Positions 1,300 through 31,477 are shown, numbered from the stretch's first letter. The stretch: DNA of 39,993 nucleotides from Deltaproteobacteria bacterium (GCA_021159305.1 JAGGSB010000013.1:1-39993); one strand, 5' to 3'. The notes: generated by a model not told the origin, from the letters alone. Numbers and translations are program-made.

Positions 1300-1324
1300 A
1301 GTTAAACCTTTTTATGGAGGAATG

Positions 1325-2548
1325 ATGGCTTTAGTTGTACAGAAATATGGGGGGACATCAGTAGCTAATATAGAACGGGTAAGAAATGTATCCAATCATA
1401 TAAAAGAAAGCAAGGGAGAGGGAAATGATGTAGTGGTGGTTATCTCTGCTATAGCTGGAGAAACGGATAGGTTAGTTGATCTGGCTCACAGCTTGTCTTT
1501 ACATCCAGCAGAGAGAGAAATGGACCTGCTTCTTTCCAGCGGAGAAAGAATCTCCAGTGCCTTGATGGCCATCAGATTAAATGAGATAGGATGTAAAGCA
1601 ATAGCTTTAACGGGCAGGCAAAGTGGTATTTTGACCGACAACATTCACCTGAAGGCGAGAATAATGCATATAGATAAAGATAAAGTTATGCATTATTTGA
1701 AGGACGGATATGTAGTGGTGATAGCCGGTTTTCAAGGTATCAATGAGAAGGGTGAGGTGACTACATTGGGAAGGGGTGGTTCTGATACATCGGCAGTAGC
1801 CGTGGCGGCATCCCTTAATGCGGATATATGTGAGATATATACAGATGTGGATGGAATTTTCACAGCAGATCCAAGAATTGTTAATAATGCACAGAAAATA
1901 GACAGAATCAATTACGATGAGGTAATGGAACTGTCAAGTTTGGGGGCTAAAGTTTTACAAATAAGATCGGTAGAATTGGGGAAAAAATATAAGGTTCCAA
2001 TAAAGGTTTTATCCAGTTTTACATATGAGCCGGGAACATTAATAGATGATGGAGGAAAAATGGAAGAAGTGATTGTCTCTGGAGTTGTAAGCGATAAGAA
2101 CCAGGCTCGCTTGACAATAACCAGAGTGCCCGACAAGCAGGGTATAGCGGCTCAAGTTTTTGAAACAATAGCGTCTAAAAATATTGTGGTGGATATGATT
2201 GTACAGAATGTAAGTGAAGAGGGTTTTACTGATATATCATTTACAGTGCCAAAAGATGATGCAGACGATGCATTGAAGGCAACAGATGAAGTTTCAAGGA
2301 AAATTGGAGGGGGAAGGGTTACATTAAACAAAGATGTGAGCAAAGTTTCTATAGTTGGTGTAGGGATGAGAAGTCACTGGGGTATAGCGGCCCGGATGTT
2401 TCGTACGCTGGCTAAAGAAGGCATAAATATAAGGATGATCAGCACATCTGAGATTAAGATTTCCTGTGTTATTGATGAGAAATATACAGAATTAGCGGTG
2501 AGGGCATTGCATAGAGATTTTAATTTAAGTAAAGGAAACAAAGGATAG
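1325..2548 (+). CDS. lysC: Aspartate kinase
   Basis: Phosphorylates aspartate, the first step to lysine/DAP, threonine and methionine. The N-terminus has the kinase motif [10 protein letters not shown], the middle has [11 protein letters not shown] and [10 protein letters not shown], and the C-terminal third (from about residue 260) forms two ACT domains for amino-acid feedback. The length of 407 residues fits monofunctional aspartate kinases. Two ATGs are adjacent (1322 and 1325). I chose 1325 because ggagg at 1316-1320 is only 1 nt from the first, and [10 protein letters not shown] is the usual beginning. An internal in-frame start precedes the ACT region (separate entry). It is the first gene of a ten-gene plus-strand run. 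The dap genes it feeds lie at 25.8-29.5 kb. Confidence 0.96.
2060..2548 (+). CDS. lysC: Internal in-frame start in lysC: aspartate kinase beta (regulatory) subunit
   Basis: Inside lysC and in the same frame, ggagga at 2051-2056 stands 4 nt before an ATG at 2060. Translation from here would give a 162-residue protein beginning MEEVIVSGV and containing only the two ACT domains. Bacillus subtilis aspartokinase II and Corynebacterium glutamicum LysC are known to make such a beta subunit from an internal start at this place in the protein, forming an alpha2-beta2 enzyme. The site is seen in the sequence; its use here is inferred. Confidence 0.6.
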
Positions 2549-18496: not shown

Positions 18497-19647
18497 CTTC
18501 CGAAGGTATACATTATCAATCCACTTAGAACTTTGGGATAGAAAAAGGTGGATTTTTGCGGCAGGATAACACCTTTTTTCACTACATCCGTAAGTTCTTT
18601 GTACGATATGGCTTTAAGCAGGAAAGCATATTTTGCTTTTTTTCCATCTATTGCTTTTATTGCCTCAGCTGTTGAATGTGCATAGCCGATATTCTGTTGT
18701 TTTTTCATATCTTCTTCAGATAATCTCAAGATTTTCCTGTAGATAACATGATCAAAAAAGATGGGTAGAGGCTCATTTCTTTTTATCTTTGTGTTTAGAT
18801 TATAATAGTTTTTTCCATCATACATTACAATTTCACTGTCTTTTTTTGTAGATTCCTCAATATTAAAATATTGAGAGAGTCTTTTTAAGAAATTTTCATC
18901 TGTTTTTTCTATTAATCTATGAATAGGTAGAAGTAAAAGACCACTTTTTTCCATTCCCATAAACATTACGGGAATATTGTTGCATCCTGCATGCGGATAT
19001 GCTTTTTTGATGTTCAAGGCTGTTTCATACCTGTGATGGCCATCAGCGATTATTGCCTTTTTCTTTCTCATTGCAGAACATACAATGCCTATATTTTCTT
19101 TTTCTGTGATTTTCCATATCTTATGTACATCTTGCTCGTAACGGGTACATATATCAGGGTTTTTTTTATCATATAATGAGAAAATTTGCTCAATTTCTTT
19201 GTCATCTTCATACAAAGCTAAAATGGGTGAAAAGAATGTTTTGGTTTGAGTGATGAGGTTAAATCTATCAATCTTGGGACCACTTAATGTCTTTTCGTGA
19301 GGATAAACATTTCTTCCCCATTCTTCTAATTGTAATGCTCCCACAAATCCCTTTAATATTTTTTGTTTCCCTTCCCAATTAAACACTTGTTCGTATATGA
19401 AAAGAGCAGGTGTGTTTTCTTTTAATAATATGTTTTTATGTATCCATTCTCTTAAAAGATCCCCGGCACACTCATATTTATTTTTTCCTTCAGGGAGTAT
19501 GATATGGGTGATATTATACTTACTGCGTGCACACAACTGTCCCCTTTTTTCTTTATCTATCACATCATAGGGTGGGGCTATTACTGAATCGGGGCTTATT
19601 TTTTTATTATATATAGTCGCTTTGAACGGTTTTATTTCTAACATCAT
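18493..19647 (-). CDS. DUF1015 family protein
   Basis: Begins MMLEIKPFKATIYN and contains SVIAPPYDVID, YEQVF, GFVGALQLEEW, VYPHEKTLSGPKIDR and IADGHHRYETAL, the string of motifs of the DUF1015 family (about 400 residues). The function is not known; GHHR and HEKT suggest a nucleotide- or metal-dependent enzyme, sometimes noted near serine-biosynthesis genes. The start is taken at ATG 19647 inside the end of tsaB (41-nt overlap); the longer frame would need a TTG at 19659. The adjacent ATG at 19644 is an equally good choice. Confidence 0.85.
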   Translation of the reverse strand: MMLEIKPFKATIYNKKISPDSVIAPPYDVIDKEKRGQLCARSKYNITHIILPEGKNKYECAGDLLREWIHKNILLKENTPALFIYEQVFNWEGKQKILKGFVGALQLEEWGRNVYPHEKTLSGPKIDRFNLITQTKTFFSPILALYEDDKEIEQIFSLYDKKNPDICTRYEQDVHKIWKITEKENIGIVCSAMRKKKAIIADGHHRYETALNIKKAYPHAGCNNIPVMFMGMEKSGLLLLPIHRLIEKTDENFLKRLSQYFNIEESTKKDSEIVMYDGKNYYNLNTKIKRNEPLPIFFDHVIYRKILRLSEEDMKKQQNIGYAHSTAEAIKAIDGKKAKYAFLLKAISYKELTDVVKKGVILPQKSTFFYPKVLSGLIMYTFGS

Positions 19648-20248
19648 AAATAGGTACAAGCTCTTCTATTTTTGTTTCCTTCACATATTTTTCTACCTTA
19701 AGCATGTTGCTTGCATGCGGTATATTTAACAATTTATCGCTACAGATCATAGTTTCTTTGTGTAAAAACTGTTTAATCTTGTGCATTTCGGGACACAAGA
19801 CAAAAAGGCATGGTTTGATTTTCTCCCCTAATTTTTCCAATTCTGTTTTACCTATCTCTATTCTATTCAATGTATGATAGATACCATAATGTACATAAGG
19901 AAAGGAAGAAGGAATAACAGAAATTACATTTTTTGAAGGCATATTCGTTGCCAATAGATCCAGGGCGTTTATATTTAATATCATCTTTCCCTTCCCGTAT
20001 AACAGTCCTTTTAAGGTGGCAATGCCTACCCTTAGAGATGTATATTTACCAGGACCAGTGGTAATATAATATTTTTCAAAATCTGTAAAATCTCTTATAT
20101 TCAGTGTTTTTAATGTTTTGTCTATGATATCGATGAGAATCTTGGAGAGGGCAGAAGGTTTGAATAATAAGCTGTAAATGCAATCACTATCTTCGAACAC
20201 AGCAATGCTCAAAAATACAGACGATGTATCTATGGCAAAACTTAACAT
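19607..20248 (-). CDS. tsaB: tRNA threonylcarbamoyladenosine biosynthesis protein TsaB
   Basis: Scaffold partner of TsaD in making t6A37 of ANN-decoding tRNAs. The N-terminus MLSFAIDTSSVFLSIAV is the degenerate ASKHA phosphate loop. TTGPGKYTSLRVGIATLKGL is the family hallmark (usually GPGSFTGLR); here Lys replaces the usual Ser and Ser the usual Gly. Length 213 is typical. tsaD, tsaE and tsaC are not in the window. It heads a minus-strand unit with DUF1015, and its ATG is placed for a leaderless mRNA (see promoter). Confidence 0.88.
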   Translation of the reverse strand: MLSFAIDTSSVFLSIAVFEDSDCIYSLLFKPSALSKILIDIIDKTLKTLNIRDFTDFEKYYITTGPGKYTSLRVGIATLKGLLYGKGKMILNINALDLLATNMPSKNVISVIPSSFPYVHYGIYHTLNRIEIGKTELEKLGEKIKPCLFVLCPEMHKIKQFLHKETMICSDKLLNIPHASNMLKVEKYVKETKIEELVPIYDVRNKTVQSDYI

Positions 20249-20254
20249 GCGCCC

Positions 20255-20282
20255 ATTTTAGCTTATTTTTTTGAATTATCAA
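20255..20282 (-). promoter_or_regulatory. tsaB promoter, leaderless geometry
   Basis: Minus strand: TTGATA (20282-20277), a 16-nt spacer, and TAAAAT (20260-20255). Exactly 6 nt (gggcgc) separate the -10 box from the ATG at 20248. The expected +1 is therefore the A of the start codon. No Shine-Dalgarno is present. Confidence 0.6.
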
Positions 20283-20297
20283 TGCGCTTTTCATTTG

Positions 20298-20326
20298 CAA
20301 TCGATTTTGCAAAGCAAAATTGATTG
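20298..20326. repeat. 13-bp inverted repeat between the divergent tsaB and speD promoters
   Basis: Arms CAATCGATTTTGC (20298-20310) and GCAAAATTGATTG (20314-20326) pair with one mismatch around an AAA loop. The right arm overlaps the speD -35 box at 20324. No gene ends here, so a terminator role is unlikely; an operator is more plausible. Confidence 0.65.
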
Positions 20327-20352
20327 ACAATTTAGAAATTTAATGTTAAAAA
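20324..20352 (+). promoter_or_regulatory. speD-pdaD-speB promoter
   Basis: A consensus TTGACA at 20324-20329, a 17-nt spacer, and TAAAAA at 20347-20352. Transcription would start near 20359, giving a leader of about 38 nt that includes the strong aagggggtga ribosome site at 20384-20393. Confidence 0.65.
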
Positions 20353-20396
20353 AACACACGCATTTTTTAAAAACTTAAAGCGTAAGGGGGTGAGAA

Positions 20397-20795
20397 TTGA
20401 GGGCGTTAGGAAGACACATATTGGTTGAGTATTTCAACTGTGACCGGGTACTTCTCAATGATCCGGTAAGGTTGGAAAGTTGTTTAAAAGAAGCAGCAGT
20501 GAAAACTGGTGCTCATATTCTTTCTTCTACATTCAGAACATTCGAGCCGCATGGGGTAAGTGGAGTAGTAATTGTGGCTGAATCTCATTTGGCCATTCAT
20601 ACCTGGCCAGAATATGGTATTTTGTTAGGAGATTTTTTTACCTGTGGTGAACAGGCAAACCCATGGAAGGCGCATGACTATTTGAAAGGCATACTCAAAC
20701 CCACTCATTCAAAGGAGCAAGAAATTCTGCGAGGCATAATGGGTGTGGATGTGCCACACAAACCAACTGTTCTTAAAGGAGTTGGAAGTGTTTAA
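20397..20795 (+). CDS. speD: S-adenosylmethionine decarboxylase proenzyme
   Basis: Pyruvoyl enzyme supplying decarboxylated SAM for spermidine. It is of the short bacterial/archaeal type 1b (132 residues). The self-cleavage site is Glu62|Ser63 in VAESHLAIHTWPEYG. His68 and Cys83 (DFFTCG) occupy the usual processing and catalytic positions. The start is TTG at 20397, fixed by a strong Shine-Dalgarno 4 nt upstream and by the typical beginning MRALGRHIL. Its 3' end overlaps the pdaD start by 8 nt. Spermidine synthase (speE) is not next to it. Confidence 0.95.
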   Translation: MRALGRHILVEYFNCDRVLLNDPVRLESCLKEAAVKTGAHILSSTFRTFEPHGVSGVVIVAESHLAIHTWPEYGILLGDFFTCGEQANPWKAHDYLKGILKPTHSKEQEILRGIMGVDVPHKPTVLKGVGSV

Positions 20796-21261
20796 GAAAA
20801 GACCCAATATTTTTTGCCTGAGAGCTTCTGCTGGTGATGCATCTTCTAAACTCAATGCATTTGATGTGGCTTTATTTAAAGCAGGCGTAGGGAACATGAA
20901 CTTATTAAAAGTAAGTAGCATTTTGCCTCCTTATTGTGAGTATGTGGAAGAGATAAAATTTGAAGAAGGATCACTTATTCCTGTTGCTTATGGGGCAGTT
21001 TCTTCATCTGAGCCAGGAGAGCTTTTGAGTGCGGCTGTGGCTTGCGCTGTGCCAAAGGATAAAAGTAAAGCTGGGTTGATTATGGAATATGCCACTAGAG
21101 GAAAAGCAAAAGAAGATACGGAGAAACAAGTAAGAGAAATGGCTTTAAAAGGCATGCAATGGAGAGGCTATACAGTAGAAAAGATAATATCTATATCTTG
21201 TGAGCATAGGGTAGAGGAGTGTGGTGCGGCTTTTGCCTGTGTTGTTTTAGGATGGAAGTAA
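20788..21261 (+). CDS. pdaD: Pyruvoyl-dependent arginine decarboxylase
   Basis: Decarboxylates arginine to agmatine. The sequence KLNAFDVALFKAGVGNMNL precedes the self-cleavage site Ser43|Ser44 in KVSSILPP, which becomes the pyruvoyl group. SSSEPGELLSAAVACAVP and LIMEYATRGK follow, as in the archaeal and chlamydial enzymes. Starting at GTG 20788 (6 nt after aaaggag) it has 157 residues, close to the roughly 165 of Methanocaldococcus. The longer upstream frame lies in speD and is not needed. Common in archaea, patchy in bacteria. Confidence 0.93.
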   Translation: MFKKRPNIFCLRASAGDASSKLNAFDVALFKAGVGNMNLLKVSSILPPYCEYVEEIKFEEGSLIPVAYGAVSSSEPGELLSAAVACAVPKDKSKAGLIMEYATRGKAKEDTEKQVREMALKGMQWRGYTVEKIISISCEHRVEECGAAFACVVLGWK

Positions 21262-21264
21262 TTT

Positions 21265-22104
21265 ATGGACGATGATGGCAATTGTTTTATCTGTGCAAAT
21301 AAAGATTTTAGGAGATCTAAGGTATGTATAGCGGGCATACCTTATGATGGAACAAGTAGTAATAGACCTGGTGCACGGTTTGCGCCTAAGGCGATAAGAG
21401 AAGCATCACACGGCATAGAGTCGTATAGCGTTTACCAAAAAGAGAGCTTGCAGGATAAGTCTGTCTCCGATATGGGTGATATACCACTGCCTTTAGGCGA
21501 TGCAAGATTTGCAATGGGGATTATAAAATCTTTTGTCTCTCCTATTCTAAAAGAGAAAAAATGTTTTTTCCTGGGAGGAGAACATTTGATCAGCTTGCCT
21601 ATTGTGGATGTTTTATCTAATGAGCATAAGAATTTGTTTGTGGTGCAATTTGATGCTCATACAGATTTAAGGGATAGCTGGATGGGCGAAAAGCTTTCTC
21701 ATGCTTCCGTTATGAGAAGAGTGGCAGAGATTATAGGGTTTGAACATCTGCTGCAGTTGGGTATTCGTTCAGGCACAGAAGAGGAATTCAAACTTCCGCA
21801 AAGGAAACAACTTTTATGTGAAGATTTTTCCTATGTGGATGAATTTATTAAAATCATAGGGAAGAATCCTGTTTATCTCTCCATAGATTTAGATGTTTTA
21901 GACACATCGATAGCACCTGGAGTGGGAACGCCAGAGCCTGGCGGAAGAAGTTTTATAGAGTTGATTGAAACCTTGGCGAAATTTTCATCTCTTGATGTTG
22001 TGGGTTGTGATTTAGTTGAACTTTCTCCTCATTATGATTCTTCGGGTAACTCATCTATTGTAGCTGCCAGTATAGTGAAAGAGGTTATTCTCAATCTTTT
22101 TTAA
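21265..22104 (+). CDS. speB: Agmatinase / ureohydrolase
   Basis: Hydrolyses agmatine to putrescine and urea. The binuclear Mn motifs are all present: GGEHLISLP, FDAHTDLRDSW and SIDLDVLDTSIAPGVGTPEPGG. Length 279 is typical. It lies 3 nt after pdaD, completing arginine to putrescine. An alternative is that it acts on N1-aminopropylagmatine, as in the Thermus-type route; the sequence does not decide. The stop overlaps the convergent helicase gene by 14 nt. Confidence 0.93.
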   Translation: MDDDGNCFICANKDFRRSKVCIAGIPYDGTSSNRPGARFAPKAIREASHGIESYSVYQKESLQDKSVSDMGDIPLPLGDARFAMGIIKSFVSPILKEKKCFFLGGEHLISLPIVDVLSNEHKNLFVVQFDAHTDLRDSWMGEKLSHASVMRRVAEIIGFEHLLQLGIRSGTEEEFKLPQRKQLLCEDFSYVDEFIKIIGKNPVYLSIDLDVLDTSIAPGVGTPEPGGRSFIELIETLAKFSSLDVVGCDLVELSPHYDSSGNSSIVAASIVKEVILNLF

Positions 22105-24499
22105 TCATTTCGTTTAGTTGTTCAATATTACCGATATGCATCTGGCACGAAGGAAAAGCATCTAAAAAGTATTTGCCATAAGACTTGGTGAGTATTCTTT
22201 TATCTAAGACAACTATTGTTCCTTTATCTTCTTTGCTTCTAACCAACCTGCCAAAACCTTGTTTTGTCTTTATCACTGCTTTAGGCAGACTGTATTGCAT
22301 GAATGAATTACCTCCTTCCTGTTCAATTAATTTATATTTTGCACTTTCTATAGGATGAGTGGGGACCTCGAACGGTAACTTTGTGATAACCACACAAGAA
22401 AGAGCCCTTCCTTTTACATCTACTCCTTCCCAAAAGCTGCTTACACCAAATAGAATACCATTGCCTGTTTTTTTGAACAGTGTGAGCAGCTTAGACCTAT
22501 CCATATCTCCTTGTTTGAATGTTTCATGGTTTTTCACTTTTCCTTTGCATAATTCATAGACATTATTCATAAGCTTTATAGAGGTAAATAGAATAAGAAT
22601 TCCACCTTCTACTGTTTCTGTGATGTTGCATATAGCCTGGCTGAGACTTTGCGAAAAACCTTCTTCTTGTGGTAATAAGGTATTATTCGCTATGATGAGT
22701 TTTGCTAATTTTTGAAAGTCAAAAGAGGAAGGTAAAATGAGGGTTTCTGCTTTTTCGAGACCGATATTGTTCCGAAAAAAATCAAAGGAATTTCCCACAC
22801 TTAAAGTAGCAGATGTAAAGATACAACATCTTTTATGATTGAATAATATCTCTTTCATATAGGGTGCGAGTTTTAGCGGCGTGATATGAAAAAAAAGGTT
22901 CTTTTTCTGCATGGAAAACCACAGAATATCGTTTTGTTCAGGATTTTCAAATGTCTTCAACAAAGATACAAAGGAAAAAATCCTTCCCATATAAGCATGA
23001 AAGTGTTTTATATAAAACAATGCTTCTTCATTATTTTTTATCTGTTTTAATTCTTTTTCTATCTTTTCTCCATGAGAGATTATTTCCTTTAAAATCTCAT
23101 ATAATTCTTTTAATGGTTCTTTAACATGCTGAGATATATCTTCGCTGAAGGATATTTCTTTGGCATTTTGAGGAAGAAAGGTTTTTATAATATCGGTTAT
23201 GTTTGTTGATAACTCGTCTATCCGTTTTTTCTTCTCTTCTATTTCTTTGCTTAGTTTATTCAGCTTTTCATTCAAAGAGGGAAGGTCTTCTGTAAATGTT
23301 TGAAGGATAAAGATTACACCCCTATTCTTTTTTCTAAAGCGATTGTGCAATTTGGAGAATATTCTCTTTACCCCTTCTATAGACAGGCTTTCTCCAAAGT
23401 GCCTGGTTGCCACATTCTCTATGTTGTGCGCTTCATCAAAGATAATGTTCTTGTATGGAGGAAGAAGAGCAGAGGTTTTGCTGAGTTGAGAAATAACAAG
23501 GTCGGAAAAGACAAGATGATGGTTGGCTACGATTATATCACTGGCTGCGATATGCAGTTTTGCCTTGAAGTAAAAACAGCTGTCCGGAAAATATTTACAT
23601 CTCTTGTACAAACAGGTATCTGTTTGTGAACATATCTCTTCCCACAATCTCCCGCCTACAAAATCTGATATTTCCTCATACCTTCCTTCCTTTGTTTTGC
23701 TTGCCCAGTCTCTTAAGTTTTCTATCTCTTTCTTTTTCCCTTCAAAAGGGAGGAAACTGCCAGTTTTCAGCATCTCTTCAAATTTTCTTAAACATAAAAA
23801 ATGTTCTCTTCCTACTGCTAAAGATGCAGTAAAAGGTATGTTTAGATTTCTTGAAAGGAATGGTATATCCTTATTTATCAACTGGTATTGGAGATTTATG
23901 GTATTTGTAGAGACAACAATATGCTCCTTATTTTTCTTTGCCCATAATATAGCAGGCAGGAGATAGGCAAAACTCTTACCTGTTCCTGTGCCTGCTTCTA
24001 CCACCAGGTCTCCACCTTCATTCAATGTTTTTGCTACTTGTTCCGCCATCTTCAATTGTTCTTTTCTGTATTCAAAATCTTCTAACTTTCGGGAAAGCAA
24101 TCCTTTGTTTCCGAAGTAATTCTTTACCTGCTCTATACTTATCTTTTCTTCTTTTCTTGTAGGCTTTATTACAATGTGGGCAAATGAGCAGTCGTTATTT
24201 ACAATGTAAAATCCTATTCCGCTTTGAGACAAATAAGCGGCGATATCTAAGTCTTGATTTGAAGGGGTAAGTATGCCGGAGGGATGATTGTGAATTACTA
24301 CATATCCGGATGGAACATCACATACAGCTAATGTACATTCTTCGTTTCCCCAGCTTTTGGCTTCTATCTCCTCTATTTTCCCCTCATCGTTTGTCTTTCC
24401 TGTAAAGAATACCTCTCCTTTTTCATTCTTTTTGATTTCTTCTGCTATGTAGTTGCAGGCAGATGATGTAAATATCTTATTGGTGGGGATGTACATCAT
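22091..24499 (-). CDS. DinG-family helicase with N-terminal RadC/JAB-like domain
   Basis: An 802-residue fusion. Residues 1-112 form a small JAB/MPN-type domain with a complete JAMM-like set: E29 (GEVFFTG), H70-N-H72-P-S-G and D83. The pattern is as in RadC. From about 140 it is an XPD/DinG superfamily 2 helicase. Walker A is AGTGTGKS (169-176), and the Fe-S ligands are probably C236 (REHFLCL), C296, C301 and C308, with an extra C290. The DEAH box is FDEAHNIE, and a C-terminal motif VI is QGFGRLVRSKEDKG. DinG unwinds 5' to 3' at forks, R-loops and flaps. The start overlaps the purF stop by 4 nt. Confidence 0.9.
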   Translation of the reverse strand: MMYIPTNKIFTSSACNYIAEEIKKNEKGEVFFTGKTNDEGKIEEIEAKSWGNEECTLAVCDVPSGYVVIHNHPSGILTPSNQDLDIAAYLSQSGIGFYIVNNDCSFAHIVIKPTRKEEKISIEQVKNYFGNKGLLSRKLEDFEYRKEQLKMAEQVAKTLNEGGDLVVEAGTGTGKSFAYLLPAILWAKKNKEHIVVSTNTINLQYQLINKDIPFLSRNLNIPFTASLAVGREHFLCLRKFEEMLKTGSFLPFEGKKKEIENLRDWASKTKEGRYEEISDFVGGRLWEEICSQTDTCLYKRCKYFPDSCFYFKAKLHIAASDIIVANHHLVFSDLVISQLSKTSALLPPYKNIIFDEAHNIENVATRHFGESLSIEGVKRIFSKLHNRFRKKNRGVIFILQTFTEDLPSLNEKLNKLSKEIEEKKKRIDELSTNITDIIKTFLPQNAKEISFSEDISQHVKEPLKELYEILKEIISHGEKIEKELKQIKNNEEALFYIKHFHAYMGRIFSFVSLLKTFENPEQNDILWFSMQKKNLFFHITPLKLAPYMKEILFNHKRCCIFTSATLSVGNSFDFFRNNIGLEKAETLILPSSFDFQKLAKLIIANNTLLPQEEGFSQSLSQAICNITETVEGGILILFTSIKLMNNVYELCKGKVKNHETFKQGDMDRSKLLTLFKKTGNGILFGVSSFWEGVDVKGRALSCVVITKLPFEVPTHPIESAKYKLIEQEGGNSFMQYSLPKAVIKTKQGFGRLVRSKEDKGTIVVLDKRILTKSYGKYFLDAFPSCQMHIGNIEQLNEMIKKD

Positions 24500-25857
24500 T
24501 CAAATTCTGCAGGATAGTTACCTGTAAAACAGGCGTAACAAAAATTCTCCTTCTTGTCTACCGCTTTTTTTAGTCCGTCTAACGAAAGGTAAGAAAGAGA
24601 ATCGGCTGTGGAATATTTTCTTATCTCTTCTACACTATGAGAGAAAGCGATAAGTTCCTTTCTGGTAGGGGTGTCAATACCATAAAAACAGGGGGAGATG
24701 ATGGGAGGAGAAGCAATGCGTAGATGCACCTCCTTTGCCCCTGCTGTTTTTATCATTTTTACGATTTTTCTGCTGGTTGTTCCTCTAACGATAGAATCGT
24801 CTACTACAACCACCCTTTTCCCTTTTAGAAATTTTCTTACTGCATTGAATTTTAACTTTACGCCAAAATGTCGTATGGATTGTTTGGGCTCTATAAAGGT
24901 TCTACCTATGTAATGGTTTCTGATTAAGCCGAACTCAAATGGTATACCTGAGGCCTGGGCAAAACCTATGGCTGAAGCTACACTGGAATCTGGCACTGGA
25001 ACAACAACATCCGCCTCAACTGGAGATTCTTGAAACAACAATTCTCCTAATCTTTTTCTAACTATGTATACATCTTTTCCCCATAAAATGCTGTCGGGAC
25101 GGGCAAAATACACATATTCAAATATGCATTGCTTTGGTTCTACCTTTTTAAAGGGTTGCAGGGAGGTTATACCTTTGTCATTTATAATCACGACTTCTCC
25201 AGGCTTTACATCTCGTAAGAGCCTGGCTCCGATGAGTTCAAATGAGCATGTTTCTGAAGAGAGGATGATTGTGTCTTTCATCTTTCCTACGCTCAACGGT
25301 CTGAACCCATAGGGATCTCTTACCCCAATGATGCTATGCTTGGTGAGAATAACCAGTGAATATGCGCCTTTTATCTGTTTTAAGGAGTTAATCAATCTTG
25401 TTATTATATTCCCACTGCTGTGAGCAATGAGATGGAGGATTATCTCCGTATCAGATTGAGAGTTAAAGATTGCTCCTTTTGCAGTAAGACTTTTTCTTAA
25501 TTTATAGGTATTGGTTAAATTCCCATTGTGAGCGATGGCAATGTTTCCCGACGAAAGGGTGGCGGTAAACGGTTGTATATTTATAAAACTATCGTCTCCT
25601 GTTGTAGAATAGCGGTTATGACCAATGGCGACATTTCCTTTTAATTTTTTAATTGTTTCTTCATCAAATACCTCGGCGACTAATCCCGTGGATTTATACT
25701 CATAGAAGTTTTTTTTATCTGTAGATACAATGCCCGCGCTTTCCTGTCCCCGATGCTGAAGAGCATATAGTATCAAATAGGCAAAATTCGCAGCTTCTTT
25801 ATGGTTAAATACACCACATATACCGCATGCTTCTTTCAATTTATAATCCGAGAACAT
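24496..25857 (-). CDS. purF: Amidophosphoribosyltransferase (Fe-S, Bacillus type)
   Basis: First step of purine synthesis: PRPP plus glutamine to phosphoribosylamine. Ten propeptide residues precede the nucleophile Cys11 (EA|CGICGVF), then LQHRGQESAGI and NGNLTN. The PRPP loop is VVVDDSIVRGTTSRK. Four cysteines at the places known in Bacillus PurF (EPKQCIFEY, ISPCFYG, and the C-terminal CYAC) indicate a structural 4Fe-4S cluster. Length 453 fits. ATG overlaps the end of dapB by 17 nt. purF in a DAP operon is unusual but plausible as cotranscription. Confidence 0.96.
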   Translation of the reverse strand: MFSDYKLKEACGICGVFNHKEAANFAYLILYALQHRGQESAGIVSTDKKNFYEYKSTGLVAEVFDEETIKKLKGNVAIGHNRYSTTGDDSFINIQPFTATLSSGNIAIAHNGNLTNTYKLRKSLTAKGAIFNSQSDTEIILHLIAHSSGNIITRLINSLKQIKGAYSLVILTKHSIIGVRDPYGFRPLSVGKMKDTIILSSETCSFELIGARLLRDVKPGEVVIINDKGITSLQPFKKVEPKQCIFEYVYFARPDSILWGKDVYIVRKRLGELLFQESPVEADVVVPVPDSSVASAIGFAQASGIPFEFGLIRNHYIGRTFIEPKQSIRHFGVKLKFNAVRKFLKGKRVVVVDDSIVRGTTSRKIVKMIKTAGAKEVHLRIASPPIISPCFYGIDTPTRKELIAFSHSVEEIRKYSTADSLSYLSLDGLKKAVDKKENFCYACFTGNYPAEFE

Positions 25858-26623
25858 TCTTCATTGTATACAACCCCGAAGGTTTGTTTATTATCCACAA
25901 AGCGGCTTTTACCGCTCCTTGAGCAAAGGTTTCTCTGGATTGGGCACGATGGGTAATCTCTAACCTTTCTCCTATGCCGGCAAAGGTAACGGTGTGTTCT
26001 CCCACTACATCACCTCCTCTCAAAGAGAGAATGCCGATTTCCTTATCCTTCCTTTCTCCTACTATGCCTTTTCTCCCATATACTGCTACATTTTCTAATT
26101 CTTCTCCCATTGCCTGAGCAATGATTTGTGCTATCTTCATCGCCGTTCCTGAAGGAGCATCCTTTTTTAATCTATGGTGCATCTCCATTATTTCTACATC
26201 AAAATCCTTTATAAGAATAGGTGCTATCCTTTCTACGATGGTAAATAAGGTATTCACGCCCACACTCATGTTTGGAGACATAACAATGGAAATATTTTTA
26301 GATGCTTCTTTAATTTTTTCTATTCCTTTTTCGTCTATACCCGTGGTGCCGATGACCATTTTCTTGCCTACTTTTAGATGAGAAATTGTAGCCTCTGGTG
26401 TAGAAAATTCTATTATTACATCTCCTGCAGCCTTTCCTATATCACCGGTGATTTGTATGTCTTTTTTTGGCAAGCCTGCAATTTCTCCTATATCCATTCC
26501 GATATAGGAGGAACCTGTGGCTTCGACTCCTCCAGAAACTTCTATTCCCTCTGCATTTTCAACGGCTCTTGTGATCATTCTACCCATCCTTCCGCCTGCT
26601 CCGCAGATTATGACTTGAATCAT
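25841..26623 (-). CDS. dapB: 4-hydroxy-tetrahydrodipicolinate reductase
   Basis: Reduces HTPA in the lysine/DAP pathway. Nucleotide-binding CGAGGRMGRMI (residues 7-17), catalytic EMHHRLKKDAPSGTA with the His-His and Lys, GRKGIVGERKDKEIGI and GEHTVTFAG are all present. Length 260 is normal. The start has ggggaga upstream, 9 nt after dapA. Confidence 0.96.
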   Translation of the reverse strand: MIQVIICGAGGRMGRMITRAVENAEGIEVSGGVEATGSSYIGMDIGEIAGLPKKDIQITGDIGKAAGDVIIEFSTPEATISHLKVGKKMVIGTTGIDEKGIEKIKEASKNISIVMSPNMSVGVNTLFTIVERIAPILIKDFDVEIMEMHHRLKKDAPSGTAMKIAQIIAQAMGEELENVAVYGRKGIVGERKDKEIGILSLRGGDVVGEHTVTFAGIGERLEITHRAQSRETFAQGAVKAALWIINKPSGLYTMKNVLGL

Positions 26624-26632
26624 ATCTCTCCC

Positions 26633-27511
26633 CTAAATGAGATTATAAGACTGAAGAACAGCCTTTAATTTTTCCTTACTTGCATTCCCCATTTTGCACA
26701 AAGGTAGTTTAAATTCCTCTTCTACCAGTCCCATCAAATGACATGCCGTTTTTACAGGAATGGGATTTGTTTCAATGAACATTGCCTCATGCAGAGGATG
26801 GAGATAATGGTGCAGCTCTTTTGCTTTTTCAAAATCCCCGTTAAGAATAGCATCTACCTGTTCTGAAACAGGTTTTGGAGCAACATTTGCCGTTACAGAA
26901 ATAACACCTACTGCCCCCAGAGCCATCATAGGAAAGGTGAGAAAATCATCTCCGCTGATAACAACAAAATCGGACGGCGTATTTTCAATGATCTGGCTCA
27001 CCTGCCTCAAACTTCCGCTTGCTTCTTTTATTCCAATGATATTCTCTATTTGTGACAGCCTAATTACTGTTTCGGGTAATATGTTTACACTTGTTCTTCC
27101 AGGAACATTGTATAGAACAATAGGAATATCCACTTCTCTTGCAATATATGCATAGTGTTCATACAGTCCTTGCTGCGTGGGTTTATTGTAATACGGGGTG
27201 ACGGAAAGAATAGCATCTGCACCTGCCTCTTTTGCATTTTCTGCCAATTTTACTACCTTTTTAGTATCATTTGTTCCTGCGCCGGCTAAAACCCCTATAT
27301 TTTTTTTACTGCATTCTTCCACTGTAATTTCAACCAGCCTCCTGTACTCTGAGATATCCATTGTTACGGCTTCGCCCGTTGTTCCGGCAGGAACAATAAC
27401 ATCTATACTATTGTCTATCTGTCTTCTTACTAATTTCCTATATATTTCCTCATCTATCTCGCCATTCCTAAAAGGGGTAATAATGGCGACCATCGCTCCT
27501 TTAATGTCCAT
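26633..27511 (-). CDS. dapA: 4-hydroxy-tetrahydrodipicolinate synthase
   Basis: Condenses pyruvate with aspartate semialdehyde. A TIM barrel with AIITPF, GTTGEAVTM, SVTPYYNKPTQQGLYEHY (catalytic Tyr), Schiff-base Lys in IIGIKEASG, and VISGDD. I take ATG 27511 as the start (292 residues) because ggaggtg ends just upstream and dapF stops 2 nt before it. The longer frame from 27523 would begin inside dapF and contain the Shine-Dalgarno. Confidence 0.96.
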   Translation of the reverse strand: MDIKGAMVAIITPFRNGEIDEEIYRKLVRRQIDNSIDVIVPAGTTGEAVTMDISEYRRLVEITVEECSKKNIGVLAGAGTNDTKKVVKLAENAKEAGADAILSVTPYYNKPTQQGLYEHYAYIAREVDIPIVLYNVPGRTSVNILPETVIRLSQIENIIGIKEASGSLRQVSQIIENTPSDFVVISGDDFLTFPMMALGAVGVISVTANVAPKPVSEQVDAILNGDFEKAKELHHYLHPLHEAMFIETNPIPVKTACHLMGLVEEEFKLPLCKMGNASKEKLKAVLQSYNLI

Positions 27512-27513
27512 AT

Positions 27514-28320
27514 TCACCTCCATGCCTCATCACTCATAACTCCCTTACAAACAGAATTTGTTTTCCCCTCCAACATTACCTCTTCCATGCCTTGAAAATA
27601 TACGGTAAGTTCTTCTCCCCCTCTTGTCTTCACTAAAACGGGGGTTTTCAACATACCTAAAGCACCCCCTATCAGTGCACTGGCTACAGAGCCCGTTCCG
27701 CAAGCCAGTGTTTCTCCCTCTACACCCCGTTCATATGTTCTTATTATTATGTATTTTTCACCGATAATCTTCATGAAGTTCACATTTGTTCCTTGTTTAA
27801 ACATCTTTGAATATCTGGTTTCCCTTCCTATCTTCATTATATCTATATTTTCTACATTCTCTACAAGATAAACTACATGGGGGACACCAGTATTTATGAA
27901 GTAGCCTTCTCTACCATTTATGTCTATTTTCTTAAATGAGGATGGTTTGGTAAGTTCCACCTTTACTCTATTTTCATTAACAATCCAGGCATGAATGGGG
28001 CCAGCTTGAGTGCGAAAACACATCTTATCCTTAGCTATCCCCTTTTCATGGGCAAAACGGGCGGCACATCGGGAGCCATTTCCGCACATTTCCACCTCAC
28101 TGCCATCATTGTTAAAGAATCTCCAGGCAAAATCTAATTCATCATCATTTTCTACGAGTATCACACCGTCTGCACCAATGGATAATCTTCTCCTGCATAT
28201 ATTTACAATAAACTGTTTTAAACTTACATCAATTGTTTTTTCCACCATCTTTGAACGGTTATCAATGATGATGAAATCATTCCCACTACCATTCATCTTC
28301 CAGAATTCAATCTGTCTCAT
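27514..28320 (-). CDS. dapF: Diaminopimelate epimerase
   Basis: Interconverts LL- and meso-DAP. The N-terminal WKMNGSGNDFIIID is followed by catalytic Cys in MCGNGSRCAARFA and the second catalytic Cys in LACGTGSVASA. Length 268 is typical. Its start overlaps lysA by 14 nt. Presence of dapF implies an LL-DAP route (succinylase, acetylase or DapL), whose enzymes are not in the window. Confidence 0.96.
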   Translation of the reverse strand: MRQIEFWKMNGSGNDFIIIDNRSKMVEKTIDVSLKQFIVNICRRRLSIGADGVILVENDDELDFAWRFFNNDGSEVEMCGNGSRCAARFAHEKGIAKDKMCFRTQAGPIHAWIVNENRVKVELTKPSSFKKIDINGREGYFINTGVPHVVYLVENVENIDIMKIGRETRYSKMFKQGTNVNFMKIIGEKYIIIRTYERGVEGETLACGTGSVASALIGGALGMLKTPVLVKTRGGEELTVYFQGMEEVMLEGKTNSVCKGVMSDEAWR

Positions 28321-29551
28321 AAGCTGTCAAATCCTCTAATGATTCCCTTCTCCTTATAATTCTCCAGTTTTTCCCATTTACTAAAACCTCACACGCCTTT
28401 AAGCGGGCATTATAGTTGCTGGACATAGAGAAACCATAAGCGCCGCAGGAGTGCACTGCTAAATACTCCCCCTCCTCTACATCTTCTATAAAGCGTTCCT
28501 GAGCCAGGAAATCACATGATTCGCAGATAGGACCTACAACATCCATTTTTTCTTTGTTTCTTTTCTTGGTGATTACAGGGAGTATTTCATGGTAGGCATT
28601 GTAAAGAGCAGGTCTTATAAGGTCATTCATTCCTCCATTGGTGATAAGAAATCTTTTTGCTCCATTTTCTTTTTTATACAGGACTTTTACTACCAATATA
28701 GCACTATTTCCTGCTAAAAATCTCCCCGGCTCAAATATCCATACAATTTCATCTCTTAAGGGAGAAAATGCACTTACTATCGCTTTTTTATATTCATTTA
28801 AGGAAGGAATCTTTTCATCTTTATATGTTATGCCCAATCCCCCTCCTACATCTATATATCTTATGTTTATATCCTTTTCTTTCAATTTCAAAACAAGTTG
28901 AAAAATCTTTTCGCTGCTTTCTCTTAAAGGGGACAGGTCTGTAAGTTGTGAACCGATGTGAAAGTGAATGCCTGCCACATCTATACAGCTTAGGCCTTTT
29001 GCATGCTGGTAAATATTTAGTGCCTCATCATAGGGAACACCGAATTTATTTTTTTTCAAACCGGTGGAAATATAAGGATGCGTTTTGGGGTCTATCTCCG
29101 GATTGACACGCACCGCGATTCGGGCTTTTTCCTTTTTGGAACAGGCAATTTTATTTATTTTTTTTAGTTCACTTAAAGATTCTACATTGAACATGAGTAT
29201 ATCTTTATCCAGTGCATATTCAATTTCCCAATCTTCTTTTCCTGCCCCGGCGAAGACAATTTTAGAAGATGGGATATTTGCTTTTTTTGATATGTAAAGT
29301 TCTCCACCTGATACGATATCTGCGCCACTCCCCAGGTTAGAAAGTATTTTTAATAGTGATAAATTGTTGTTTGCCTTCACTGCAAAGCAAATGATATGTT
29401 TTTCTGAAAATGTTTTGGAAAAGTCCAAAAACTGCTGTTTTAGATAATTTTCAGAATAAATGAAGACTGGTGTTTTTATTTTTTCGGCAATCTCTCTAAC
29501 TGCCACATCTTCGCAAAAAAGCTCTTTATTCCTGTAATGAAAGGCATCCAT
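28307..29551 (-). CDS. lysA: Diaminopimelate decarboxylase
   Basis: Decarboxylates meso-DAP to lysine. A PLP alanine-racemase-fold protein with Lys in CFAVKANNN, GIHFHIGSQLTDL, DVGGGLGITY, EPGRFLAGN, GPICESCDFLA and the C-terminal HSCGAYGFSM. Length 414 is typical, and MDAFHYRN is the usual beginning of the family. No Shine-Dalgarno precedes the ATG, and a near-perfect promoter ends 6 nt before it. First gene of lysA-dapF-dapA-dapB-purF-helicase. Confidence 0.96.
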   Translation of the reverse strand: MDAFHYRNKELFCEDVAVREIAEKIKTPVFIYSENYLKQQFLDFSKTFSEKHIICFAVKANNNLSLLKILSNLGSGADIVSGGELYISKKANIPSSKIVFAGAGKEDWEIEYALDKDILMFNVESLSELKKINKIACSKKEKARIAVRVNPEIDPKTHPYISTGLKKNKFGVPYDEALNIYQHAKGLSCIDVAGIHFHIGSQLTDLSPLRESSEKIFQLVLKLKEKDINIRYIDVGGGLGITYKDEKIPSLNEYKKAIVSAFSPLRDEIVWIFEPGRFLAGNSAILVVKVLYKKENGAKRFLITNGGMNDLIRPALYNAYHEILPVITKKRNKEKMDVVGPICESCDFLAQERFIEDVEEGEYLAVHSCGAYGFSMSSNYNARLKACEVLVNGKNWRIIRRRESLEDLTAYETD

Positions 29552-29557
29552 GTGAGA

Positions 29558-29586
29558 AATATAGAAGAGATAAGATTTTTTGTCAA
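29558..29586 (-). promoter_or_regulatory. lysA operon promoter, leaderless geometry
   Basis: Minus strand: consensus TTGACA (29586-29581), a 17-nt spacer, and TATATT (29563-29558), then 6 nt (tctcac) to the ATG at 29551. The +1 is predicted at the start codon. This is the best sigma70-like match in the window. Confidence 0.7.
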
Positions 29587-29633
29587 ACTTAAAGTCTTAA
29601 AGTTTGTAAAAATTTGAAATTTTTGTCAAACTT
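29577..29633. repeat. Repeat cluster upstream of lysA: 14-nt direct repeat and two palindromes
   Basis: TTTTTGTCAAACTT occurs at 29577-29590 and again at 29620-29633, 43 bp apart (about four helical turns). Between them lie an 11-bp-arm inverted repeat (29584-29606, one mismatch) and a perfect 17-nt palindrome, AAAAATTTGAAATTTTT (29608-29624). Each direct repeat carries a TTGACA on the minus strand; the downstream one is the lysA -35 box. This may be an operator, or partly a weak marC terminator. Confidence 0.6.
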
Positions 29634-30256
29634 TATGATAATAGAAAAAACTCTTTTATTCCATCAATAACAAACTGCACGGATATAACGGCTAAGATAA
29701 GTCCCATTAATCGGGTAAAGATATTTAGTCCTGTAGGTCCCAGGATGCGATGGATGGAAACAGCCTGTTTTAATATAAAGAATGCGAAGAATAGTGTAAG
29801 CATGATTGCAGCTATTGTTATATATGTATCATATTGCCGCGAACTACTTGTAAAAACAATGACAGTGGTAATGGCGCCTGGACCAGCCAGCATCGGTATG
29901 CCTATGGGAACGATACCCACCTCTTCTTGTTCAAAACCCTTTTCTTCTTCCTCTGGTGTTGTTTTCAGTCGTGTTCTCTTTGCCTGAAGCATCCCTAATG
30001 CAATGATGAATATGATTATTCCGCCTGCAATGCGGAAGGCAGGTATGGTTATACCAAAAAATTCCAATATGATATCACCTGCAAAGGCAAAAATTATTAA
30101 AACAAAAGCAGCTGTTAAACAGGCAAGCTGAACGGTATGTTTGATGCGTTTTTTAGAATAATTGTGAGTAAGTGCAATAAACAATGGTAAAAGACCGATG
30201 GGATCAACAATAATAAAAATAGCGACAAATATTCTTAAAAAATCTACAATCATCAT
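29633..30256 (-). CDS. MarC (UPF0056) family membrane protein
   Basis: A 207-residue protein with six membrane segments. Family motifs are FVAIFIIVDPIGLLPLFIALT (shown by its DPIG core), GITIPAFRIAGGIIIF, VPIGIPMLAGPGAITTVI and ILGPTGLNIFTRLMGLILA. MarC proteins were once linked to antibiotic resistance, but this is not supported; the function is unknown, with a transport role suggested. Two adjacent ATGs (30256, 30253). The second fits a leaderless mRNA from the promoter just upstream. It lies 81 nt before lysA on the same strand. Confidence 0.9.
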   Translation of the reverse strand: MMIVDFLRIFVAIFIIVDPIGLLPLFIALTHNYSKKRIKHTVQLACLTAAFVLIIFAFAGDIILEFFGITIPAFRIAGGIIIFIIALGMLQAKRTRLKTTPEEEEKGFEQEEVGIVPIGIPMLAGPGAITTVIVFTSSSRQYDTYITIAAIMLTLFFAFFILKQAVSIHRILGPTGLNIFTRLMGLILAVISVQFVIDGIKEFFLLS

Positions 30257-30259
30257 TCA

Positions 30260-30289
30260 AATATGCCCTATGTGATGTTTTTGTGTCAA
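30260..30289 (-). promoter_or_regulatory. marC promoter, leaderless geometry
   Basis: Minus strand: TTGACA (30289-30284), an 18-nt spacer, and CATATT (30265-30260). Six nt separate the -10 from the second ATG at 30253, and 3 nt from the first at 30256. There is no Shine-Dalgarno. Confidence 0.55.
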
Positions 30290-30320
30290 GGAAAGTAAAA
30301 CTTTTGTTTTATTTTCCTTG
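30287..30320. repeat. 15-bp inverted repeat between the divergent marC and M29 peptidase promoters
   Basis: Arms CAAGGAAAGTAAAAC (30287-30301) and GTTTTATTTTCCTTG (30306-30320) pair with one mismatch (a G-T wobble in RNA) around TTTT. The left arm overlaps the marC -35 box. No gene ends here, so an operator is more likely than a terminator. Confidence 0.7.
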
Positions 30321-30341
30321 CAACTGCTAAAGGCAAGATAG

Positions 30342-30370
30342 TTGACTTACTCAGGAATTTGTTTTAAAAA
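30342..30370 (+). promoter_or_regulatory. M29 peptidase operon promoter, leaderless geometry
   Basis: TTGACT at 30342-30347, a 17-nt spacer, and TAAAAA at 30365-30370, then 6 nt (taaagc) to the ATG at 30377. The +1 is predicted at the start codon. There is no Shine-Dalgarno. Confidence 0.6.
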
Positions 30371-30376
30371 TAAAGC

Positions 30377-31477
30377 ATGAAAGCGATAGAAAATCTATTC
30401 AGAACAAACTTGGATGTAAAAAAGGATGAAAGAGTTCTCGTATTTACAGATACAATAAATGAGAAGGAAAAACTATCTTCTAAGGAAAAAGAAAGAAGAG
30501 AAAGATTGCCCCTGTTGGCTAAACAAATACAAATGGTAGGAGAAAAATATTGTCATATTTCCTTCTTCTCTTATCCTGCTTTGATGTCTCATGGAAAAGA
30601 ACCGCCAAAAGAAATGTGGGAAGAAGTATTTGGAAAAGAAAATATAAGAAAGATAGAACAATTCTGGCAAAAGATAGAGGGAAAAACACTAACAGAGGAT
30701 GAAGAAAAGAAGATAAAAAATACACTGCGCAATACTCATTATGATGCCTTTATTGCATTATCAAACTTTTCTACCACCCATACCCTATTCAGGCGCATAC
30801 TAACAGATGTATGCAAAACAAGGTATGCCAGTATGCCACTGTTTGATGAAGAAATGTTTTCTGGTCCTATGGCTGTAGACTGGCAGAAGATGTGGCAAAG
30901 AACAGAAAAGGTAAAAAATATATTGAATGAAACAAAAATGGTAGAGATTTTTACACCTCAGGGTACACATCTTGAAATCTATCTGAATGGAAGGAATATC
31001 CTTTCTGATACCGGTGATTTGAGTAAAAGGGCCTCCTGCAGCAATTTGCCAGCAGGTGAGGTATACTTTGCTCCTAAGGAAGGAAAAACAAAAGGAACAA
31101 TGGTTATTGAGTATTCACCTACATATAGATTAAAAAACCCTCTTATACTGCATATAGAAAAAGGAAATTTGTCAAGCATAGAAGGTGATGACTCCTTTAA
31201 GGAAAGATTAAATGCTATCTTTGAAAGAATGCCCTTAGCTAAGAATGTAGCAGAACTGGGTATAGGAACAAATGATAAGGCAAAAAGGGCAGATAATATA
31301 TTAGAAGCAGAAAAGATATTGGGCACGGTGCATATAGCATTTGGAGACAATGCATCTTTCGGTGGTAATGTTTCTGTCCCCTTTCACGAAGATTATATCC
31401 AATTTTATCCCACTGTAGTTTTGCACAAAGAAACAGGCAATTTTCTTCTCCTACAGGGAGGAGAATTGTGCATATAA
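30377..31477 (+). CDS. M29-family (AmpS-like) metallo-aminopeptidase
   Basis: A 366-residue protein. The C-terminal half carries the M29 metal-site segments: NLPAGEVYFAP (Glu ligand), VAELGIGTN, then AEKILGTVHIAFGDN (Glu and His ligands) and a late His in VVLHKETG. The N-terminal half is more divergent, with a lysine- and glutamate-rich stretch (residues 30-45). Family members release N-terminal amino acids and depend on Co, Zn or Mn. First gene of the unit reaching to 35203; the downstream gene overlaps by 10 nt. Confidence 0.85.
   Translation: MKAIENLFRTNLDVKKDERVLVFTDTINEKEKLSSKEKERRERLPLLAKQIQMVGEKYCHISFFSYPALMSHGKEPPKEMWEEVFGKENIRKIEQFWQKIEGKTLTEDEEKKIKNTLRNTHYDAFIALSNFSTTHTLFRRILTDVCKTRYASMPLFDEEMFSGPMAVDWQKMWQRTEKVKNILNETKMVEIFTPQGTHLEIYLNGRNILSDTGDLSKRASCSNLPAGEVYFAPKEGKTKGTMVIEYSPTYRLKNPLILHIEKGNLSSIEGDDSFKERLNAIFERMPLAKNVAELGIGTNDKAKRADNILEAEKILGTVHIAFGDNASFGGNVSVPFHEDYIQFYPTVVLHKETGNFLLLQGGELCI

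Follow-up and report, generated by a model that had tools for sequence, protein, structure and literature searches.

In the genome of an uncultured deltaproteobacterium, about one in eight operon heads, tsaB, lysA, an M29 aminopeptidase gene and probably marC among them, very likely carry a sigma70-type promoter that adjoins the start codon, and would thereby be expressed from leaderless mRNAs bound directly at the AUG. These four genes lie in a 39,993-nucleotide (nt) stretch of the assembly (GCA_021159305.1 JAGGSB010000013.1:1-39993), hereafter the window, in which an earlier note had drawn attention to −10 boxes placed exactly 6 nt before the ATG and to the lack of a Shine-Dalgarno (SD) sequence. 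All four promoter-start arrangements are indeed present, namely TTGATA-16-TAAAAT-6-ATG (tsaB), TTGACA-17-TATATT-6-ATG (lysA), TTGACA-18-CATATT (marC) and TTGACT-17-TAAAAA-6-ATG (M29), and none of the four genes (0/4) is preceded by an SD-like match. Two of them carry caveats: in marC the first ATG follows the −10 box after 3 nt and the second after 6 nt, and the 6-nt geometry requires the latter as start, while the M29 −10 hexamer, devoid of the final T, is the weakest of the four and belongs to the promoter of lowest score. In the mechanism that we propose, an ordinary promoter would sit very close to the gene, transcription would start at, or within 1–2 nt of, the start codon, and the ribosome would engage the 5′-terminal AUG; the other heads and the internal genes would rely on SD-led or other leaders. 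The gap-6 promoter-start arrangement itself is real and conserved in relatives.

Nearly all of the source assembly (G000; 1,077,642 bases in 89 contigs) was analysed, about 1.04 Mb. Gene calling relied on codon-pair statistics alone and used neither promoter nor SD information; the resulting 997 genes were sorted into operon heads, divergent from the upstream neighbour or at least 100 nt away from it (n=273), internal genes, at most 30 nt from that neighbour (n=521), and intermediate genes at 31–99 nt (n=109). Sigma70-type −35/−10 pairs with spacers of 15–19 were scored with an Escherichia coli-like matrix, and gap counts were set against dinucleotide shuffles, internal genes, other gaps and E. 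coli. The earlier note had named a sharp maximum of the −10-to-start distance at 6 nt among operon heads as support for its reading, and such a peak is evident. At scores of at least 6, 17 heads have this gap, as compared with 1.4 in shuffles and about 3 at other gaps; gaps of 5, 7 and 8 account for 6, 9 and 7 promoters (shuffles 1.0–1.5 at each gap), and the internal genes for 4, 1, 4 and 1 at gaps 5–8. Raising the threshold to 8 leaves 12 heads at gap 6 versus 0.2 in dinucleotide shuffles and about 1 at other gaps. Removal of the window genes hardly altered these figures, with 15 and 11 heads remaining at gap 6 for the two thresholds, where other gaps give 2.9 and 1.2 (Poisson P 4e-7 and 6e-8, respectively). 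The same pipeline run on E. coli K-12 (six stretches, 300 kb, 157 heads) yielded 0 promoters at gaps 5–8 with a score of at least 6, which rules out the geometry as a generic product of the pipeline. When TANNNT alone was counted by position, the rise at −12 to −14 was weak; the signal became clear only once both boxes were scored together.

These counts bear on the notion that an AT-rich composition yields TTGACA/TATAAT look-alikes everywhere and that the four initial cases were simply chosen by eye. At about 63% A+T (base fractions), weak matches are common in this genome, and with a score of only 2 or more the heads at gaps 5–8 number 68, not far from 49 in shuffles and 59 at other gaps. 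However, the excess at gap 6 among the high-scoring promoters, its near absence from internal genes (1/521) and a conservation footprint in the sister species render this explanation highly improbable and refute it for the set as a whole, although single weak cases such as M29 could be due to chance. The peak is broader than the exact 6 nt first claimed: the mode does fall at 6, but 5, 7 and 8 are also enriched, so the range is 5–8. Altogether, 34 of the 273 heads (about 12%) have a promoter with a score of at least 6 in this range, and about 10 further leaderless-type promoters occur among the 109 intermediate genes, for a total of 44 candidates in 957 analysed genes (about 5%). Both genes are of the leaderless type in the divergent pairs at L173:3303-4710, L113:4872-8135 and L161:11180-13040.

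SD usage separates these heads from the remainder. The 3′ end of the 16S rRNA was not found in the contigs analysed, and the anti-SD was therefore taken as standard, with matches of at least 4 nt scored as SD-like. Such a match is absent in 31/34 of the gap 5–8 heads versus 134/239 of the other heads (odds ratio 8, P 5e-5). Conversely, 105 of the 239 other heads (44%) and 294 of the 521 internal genes (56%) have one, as compared with 22% of shuffled upstream regions. A −10 box ending 5–8 nt before the start leaves no room for an SD-bearing leader. Hence, the earlier suggestion that this lineage uses leaderless mRNAs for first genes and SD sites within operons holds in part: the gap-6 signal is genome-wide, excludes SD, is restricted to heads and conserved in relatives, yet does not extend to first genes in general. 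Leaderless initiation serves some first genes and is not the rule of the lineage, most of the other heads using SD or neither signal.

An alternative is that the promoters are real and the start codons wrong, the genes having ordinary leaders and being translated from an SD-led codon further downstream. Start choice relied on coding potential only, and 9/34 heads do have alternative starts upstream. The other 25 have none and show an in-frame stop within 30 nt, and 14 of 20 sampled proteins have a Pfam domain that sets in within about the first 12 residues (residue 3 in archease, ArsA and carbamoyltransferase, 4 in ROK, 5 in the OB domain of exonuclease VII, 9 in NadA and 10 in thymidylate kinase). 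These upstream stops and N-terminal domains indicate that most start codons have been placed correctly. Only one of the 34 has another in-frame ATG within the next 30 nt, and many predicted starts match those of orthologues in the sister genome G001, which leaves misplaced starts quite improbable as a general explanation. The 34 heads start with ATG (31) or GTG (3) and never with TTG, compared with 195/27/17 in the other 239. The sampled genes are mostly housekeeping ones, such as dnaA, thymidylate kinase, rimP and nadA, and also include a cysteine-synthase-like enzyme, the carbamoyltransferase and exonuclease VII.

For comparison, we used two further genomes of the same genus (G001 and G002) and 25 genomes of the phylum, all of one class. 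The nearest relative that bears a name, with a DapA 88% identical, is the metagenome-assembled genome Deltaproteobacteria bacterium AUK015. The gap-6 geometry is conserved within the genus. In G001 (125 heads), 7, 6, 3 and 3 promoters were scored at gaps 6, 7, 5 and 8, versus 0.3–1.0 in shuffles. Among 11 orthologous G000/G001 pairs of the leaderless type with matching starts, 9 maintain the same gap with a score of at least 5.8; of the remaining two, one has a match that is weaker and shifted, and the other has lost the arrangement. Identity between the two genomes is mostly 0.6–0.9 from the −35 box to the start codon, with a dip in mid-spacer, and about 0.4 further upstream; in one pair, ATG is replaced by GTG at the same position. 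At the M29 locus, the −35 box and the TTTGTTTTAAA region have been retained amid intergenic DNA that has otherwise diverged. Across the 25 class genomes, the strict pattern TTGACN-(16-18)-TANNNT-6-ATG occurs 254 times, versus 125 and 144 with gaps of 10 and 14, and 52 for a reversed gap-6 control. Three delta-like genomes reached via other loci contain 13, 12 and 15 copies of the strict gap-6 pattern against 0, 0 and 4 for the reversed control, and three Campylobacter genomes show no excess of it (3, 1 and 4 versus 3, 3 and 4 in controls).

Several points weigh against leaderless expression of this whole set. About 6 of the 34 gap 5–8 heads are expected by chance, 4/34 have hexamers lacking the final T (M29 included), promoter recognition relied on an E. 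coli-like matrix, and the class-wide counts are not independent among close relatives. Moreover, transcription from the A of the ATG and leaderless translation are themselves predictions from sequence, and gaps of 7–8 could leave a leader of 1–2 nt. It is thus conceivable that the transcripts have very short leaders (1–5 nt) or mixed start sites and are not truly leaderless, as the spread of gaps over 5–8 would allow; RNA polymerase start-site choice varies by a few nucleotides. We consider this unlikely, yet the least unlikely of the alternatives, given that the mode is exactly 6; either way, there is no room for an SD.

Leaderless initiation is already known in many other bacteria. Zheng et al. 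2011 (PMC3160421) described bacterial leaderless genes in which a TA-like (TANNNT) signal precedes the start by about 12 bp, and found them in 8/33 delta-proteobacterial genomes, at 5.7–20.6% of genes. G000 shares with those genes the −10-like hexamer and its distance, the exclusion of SD and the restriction to operon-proximal positions: a TANNNT/TATAAT-like box about 12 nt upstream rises above background as the gap-6 peak of the 273 heads, 31/34 lack SD, 34/34 start with AUG or GUG, and a single internal gene in 521 has gap 6 at a score of at least 6. It differs in usually having a clear −35 and in the modest fraction concerned (about 5%). G000 does not follow the general rule reported for Sulfolobus, leaderless first genes and SD for distal ones (background of PMC3160421), with 34/273 heads of the leaderless type instead of most. 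In Deinococcus-Thermus, a −10 motif about 6–7 bp before the open reading frame (ORF), that is, at about the same distance as in G000, has been shown to drive leaderless transcription (PMC12340547); there, an average of about 30% of ORFs are concerned and a classical −35 is mostly missing, whereas in G000 the type is a minority and has a −35. Mapped leaderless mRNAs of Campylobacter jejuni and Helicobacter pylori, 23 genes over both and little conserved (PMC3847290), likewise constitute a small set of heads with a TAnAaT box, no SD and, in C. jejuni, ATG starts; unlike these, the candidates number about 34–44 in G000 alone and usually keep their gap between sister species. A search of the available literature library retrieved no report of leaderless genes for this lineage, and among the papers listed none linked leaderless mRNAs to Hippea or Desulfurella. 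The controlled genome-wide test extends probable leaderless expression to a small uncultured lineage, with the geometry enriched class-wide, and SD-expecting gene finders may misplace starts at roughly one in ten of its operon heads.

The window features are compiled in the table. Pfam agrees with the gene names (TsaD-family domain, Orn/DAP decarboxylase, MarC, M29, AdoMet decarboxylase and, for lysC, aspartate kinase). marC lies upstream of lysA on the same strand, at a distance of 81 nt, and lysA is therefore only presumptively an operon head of its own. G002 carries an identical lysA promoter and ATG, next to a stretch in which G000 and G002 differ in length by 44 nt. This difference maps at 29577-29634 of the window, directly upstream of the promoter, and contains an inverted repeat together with a second AAGTTTGACAAAAA. 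The earlier note had contrasted the four genes with speD and lysC, said to have a leader with a strong SD. For speD this is borne out, with a promoter that leaves a 44-nt gap and an SD-like GGGGGTGAG. For lysC an SD-like GGAGG is present, but closely spaced, 1–4 nt before its two ATGs; it adjoins ATGATG, an unusually short spacing for the first ATG.

Table. Promoter elements, genes and palindromes of the window (positions counted from its first letter)
Feature	Position	Strand	Evidence and remarks
tsaB −35 box TTGATA	20277..20282	-	sequence; promoter score 9.0
tsaB −10 box TAAAAT, 6 nt before ATG	20255..20260	-	in-frame stop at −12; no alternative start upstream
tsaB, predicted leaderless head gene (ATG 20246-20248)	19607..20248	-	PF00814; no SD
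lysA −35 box TTGACA	29581..29586	-	promoter score 12.5; identical through to ATG in G002
lysA −10 box TATATT, 6 nt before ATG	29558..29563	-	conserved in G002; 44-nt length difference upstream
lysA, predicted leaderless gene	28307..29551	-	PF02784/PF00278
marC −35 box TTGACA, at palindrome edge	30284..30289	-	sequence; promoter score 9.4
marC −10 box CATATT; second ATG 30251-30253	30260..30265	-	sequence; same in G002
marC coding region from first ATG; predicted leaderless only with second ATG	29633..30256	-	PF01914
M29 peptidase −35 box TTGACT	30342..30347	+	invariant in G000, G001 and G002
M29 −10-like box TAAAAA, 6 nt before ATG	30365..30370	+	TAAAGA at the same place in G001; promoter score 6.9
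M29 aminopeptidase gene, predicted leaderless	30377..31477	+	PF02073; in-frame stop at −6
speD promoter TTGACA-17-TAAAAA, 44 nt before TTG start	20324..20352	+	sequence
speD, SD-led contrast gene	20397..20795	+	PF02675
lysC (aspartate kinase), contrast gene	1322..2548	+	PF00696 and ACT domains; GGAGG directly before ATGATG
Palindrome CAAGGAAAGTAAAAC/GTTTTATTTTCCTTG between marC and M29; edge overlaps marC −35	30287..30320	.	compensatory change in G002
Palindrome CAATCGATTTTGCAAAGCAAAATTGATTG between tsaB and speD; right edge runs into speD −35	20298..20326	.	sequence

Palindromes of the kind found at the marC and speD promoters belong to a dispersed repeat of genome-wide distribution, TTGTCAAG-[variable palindrome]-CTTGCAA, which frequently forms arrays with CTGCCAAAGGCAG as the joining sequence (for instance, outside the window, at L108:350-624, L159:132-432 and L145:9738-9856). 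Its interiors comprise at least 27 distinct sequences that are 58% identical at equal length yet 90% self-complementary (48% when shuffled), and at one locus, between marC and M29, a compensatory change between G000 and G002 preserves the palindrome. Strict copies number 38 in G000, 7 in G001, 17 in G002 and 0–4 in other class genomes. The repeat end, which reads CTTGACAA in the outward direction, includes a perfect −35, and in 17/120 scored promoters, leaderless and leadered alike (6/44 and 11/76, respectively), an inverted-repeat arm has its end at the −35, the per-position profile of arm ends peaking at 9–12% there against about 0–7% elsewhere. It could be argued on these grounds that the shared geometry was spread by a mobile palindromic repeat through insertions in front of genes. 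However, the repeat stops at the −35, which rules out a repeat-borne origin of the whole geometry; the spacer, the −10 and the 6-nt gap lie outside it and differ between genes, and most leaderless promoters have no such repeat. We accordingly regard this spread as scarcely credible, and the repeat offers no explanation of the 6-nt gap. Tentatively, and with better than slight but still low confidence, this genus-specific element may supply operon heads with ready-made −35 boxes, such that promoters, some of them leaderless, would have been partly seeded by mobile palindromes.

The genome holds a single match to the Y1-type transposase domain Y1_Tnp (PF01797), at 2805-3128 of L117 (G000:C37) in an open frame of 351 amino acids, which makes a repetitive extragenic palindromic (REP)-like, transposase-associated element a natural guess for the repeat, with this frame as candidate REP-associated transposase. 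The start of the frame, ATGGCACGACAG, is preceded by TTTACA and TAACAA and could be leaderless too. Other strongly over-represented intergenic 8-mers of G000 point to further repeats, namely GGAATGAC/GTCATTCC (124 versus 1.9 expected), TACGACCA/TGGTCGTA (45 versus 0.6) and CCGTGTCA/TGACACGG (31 versus 0.9).

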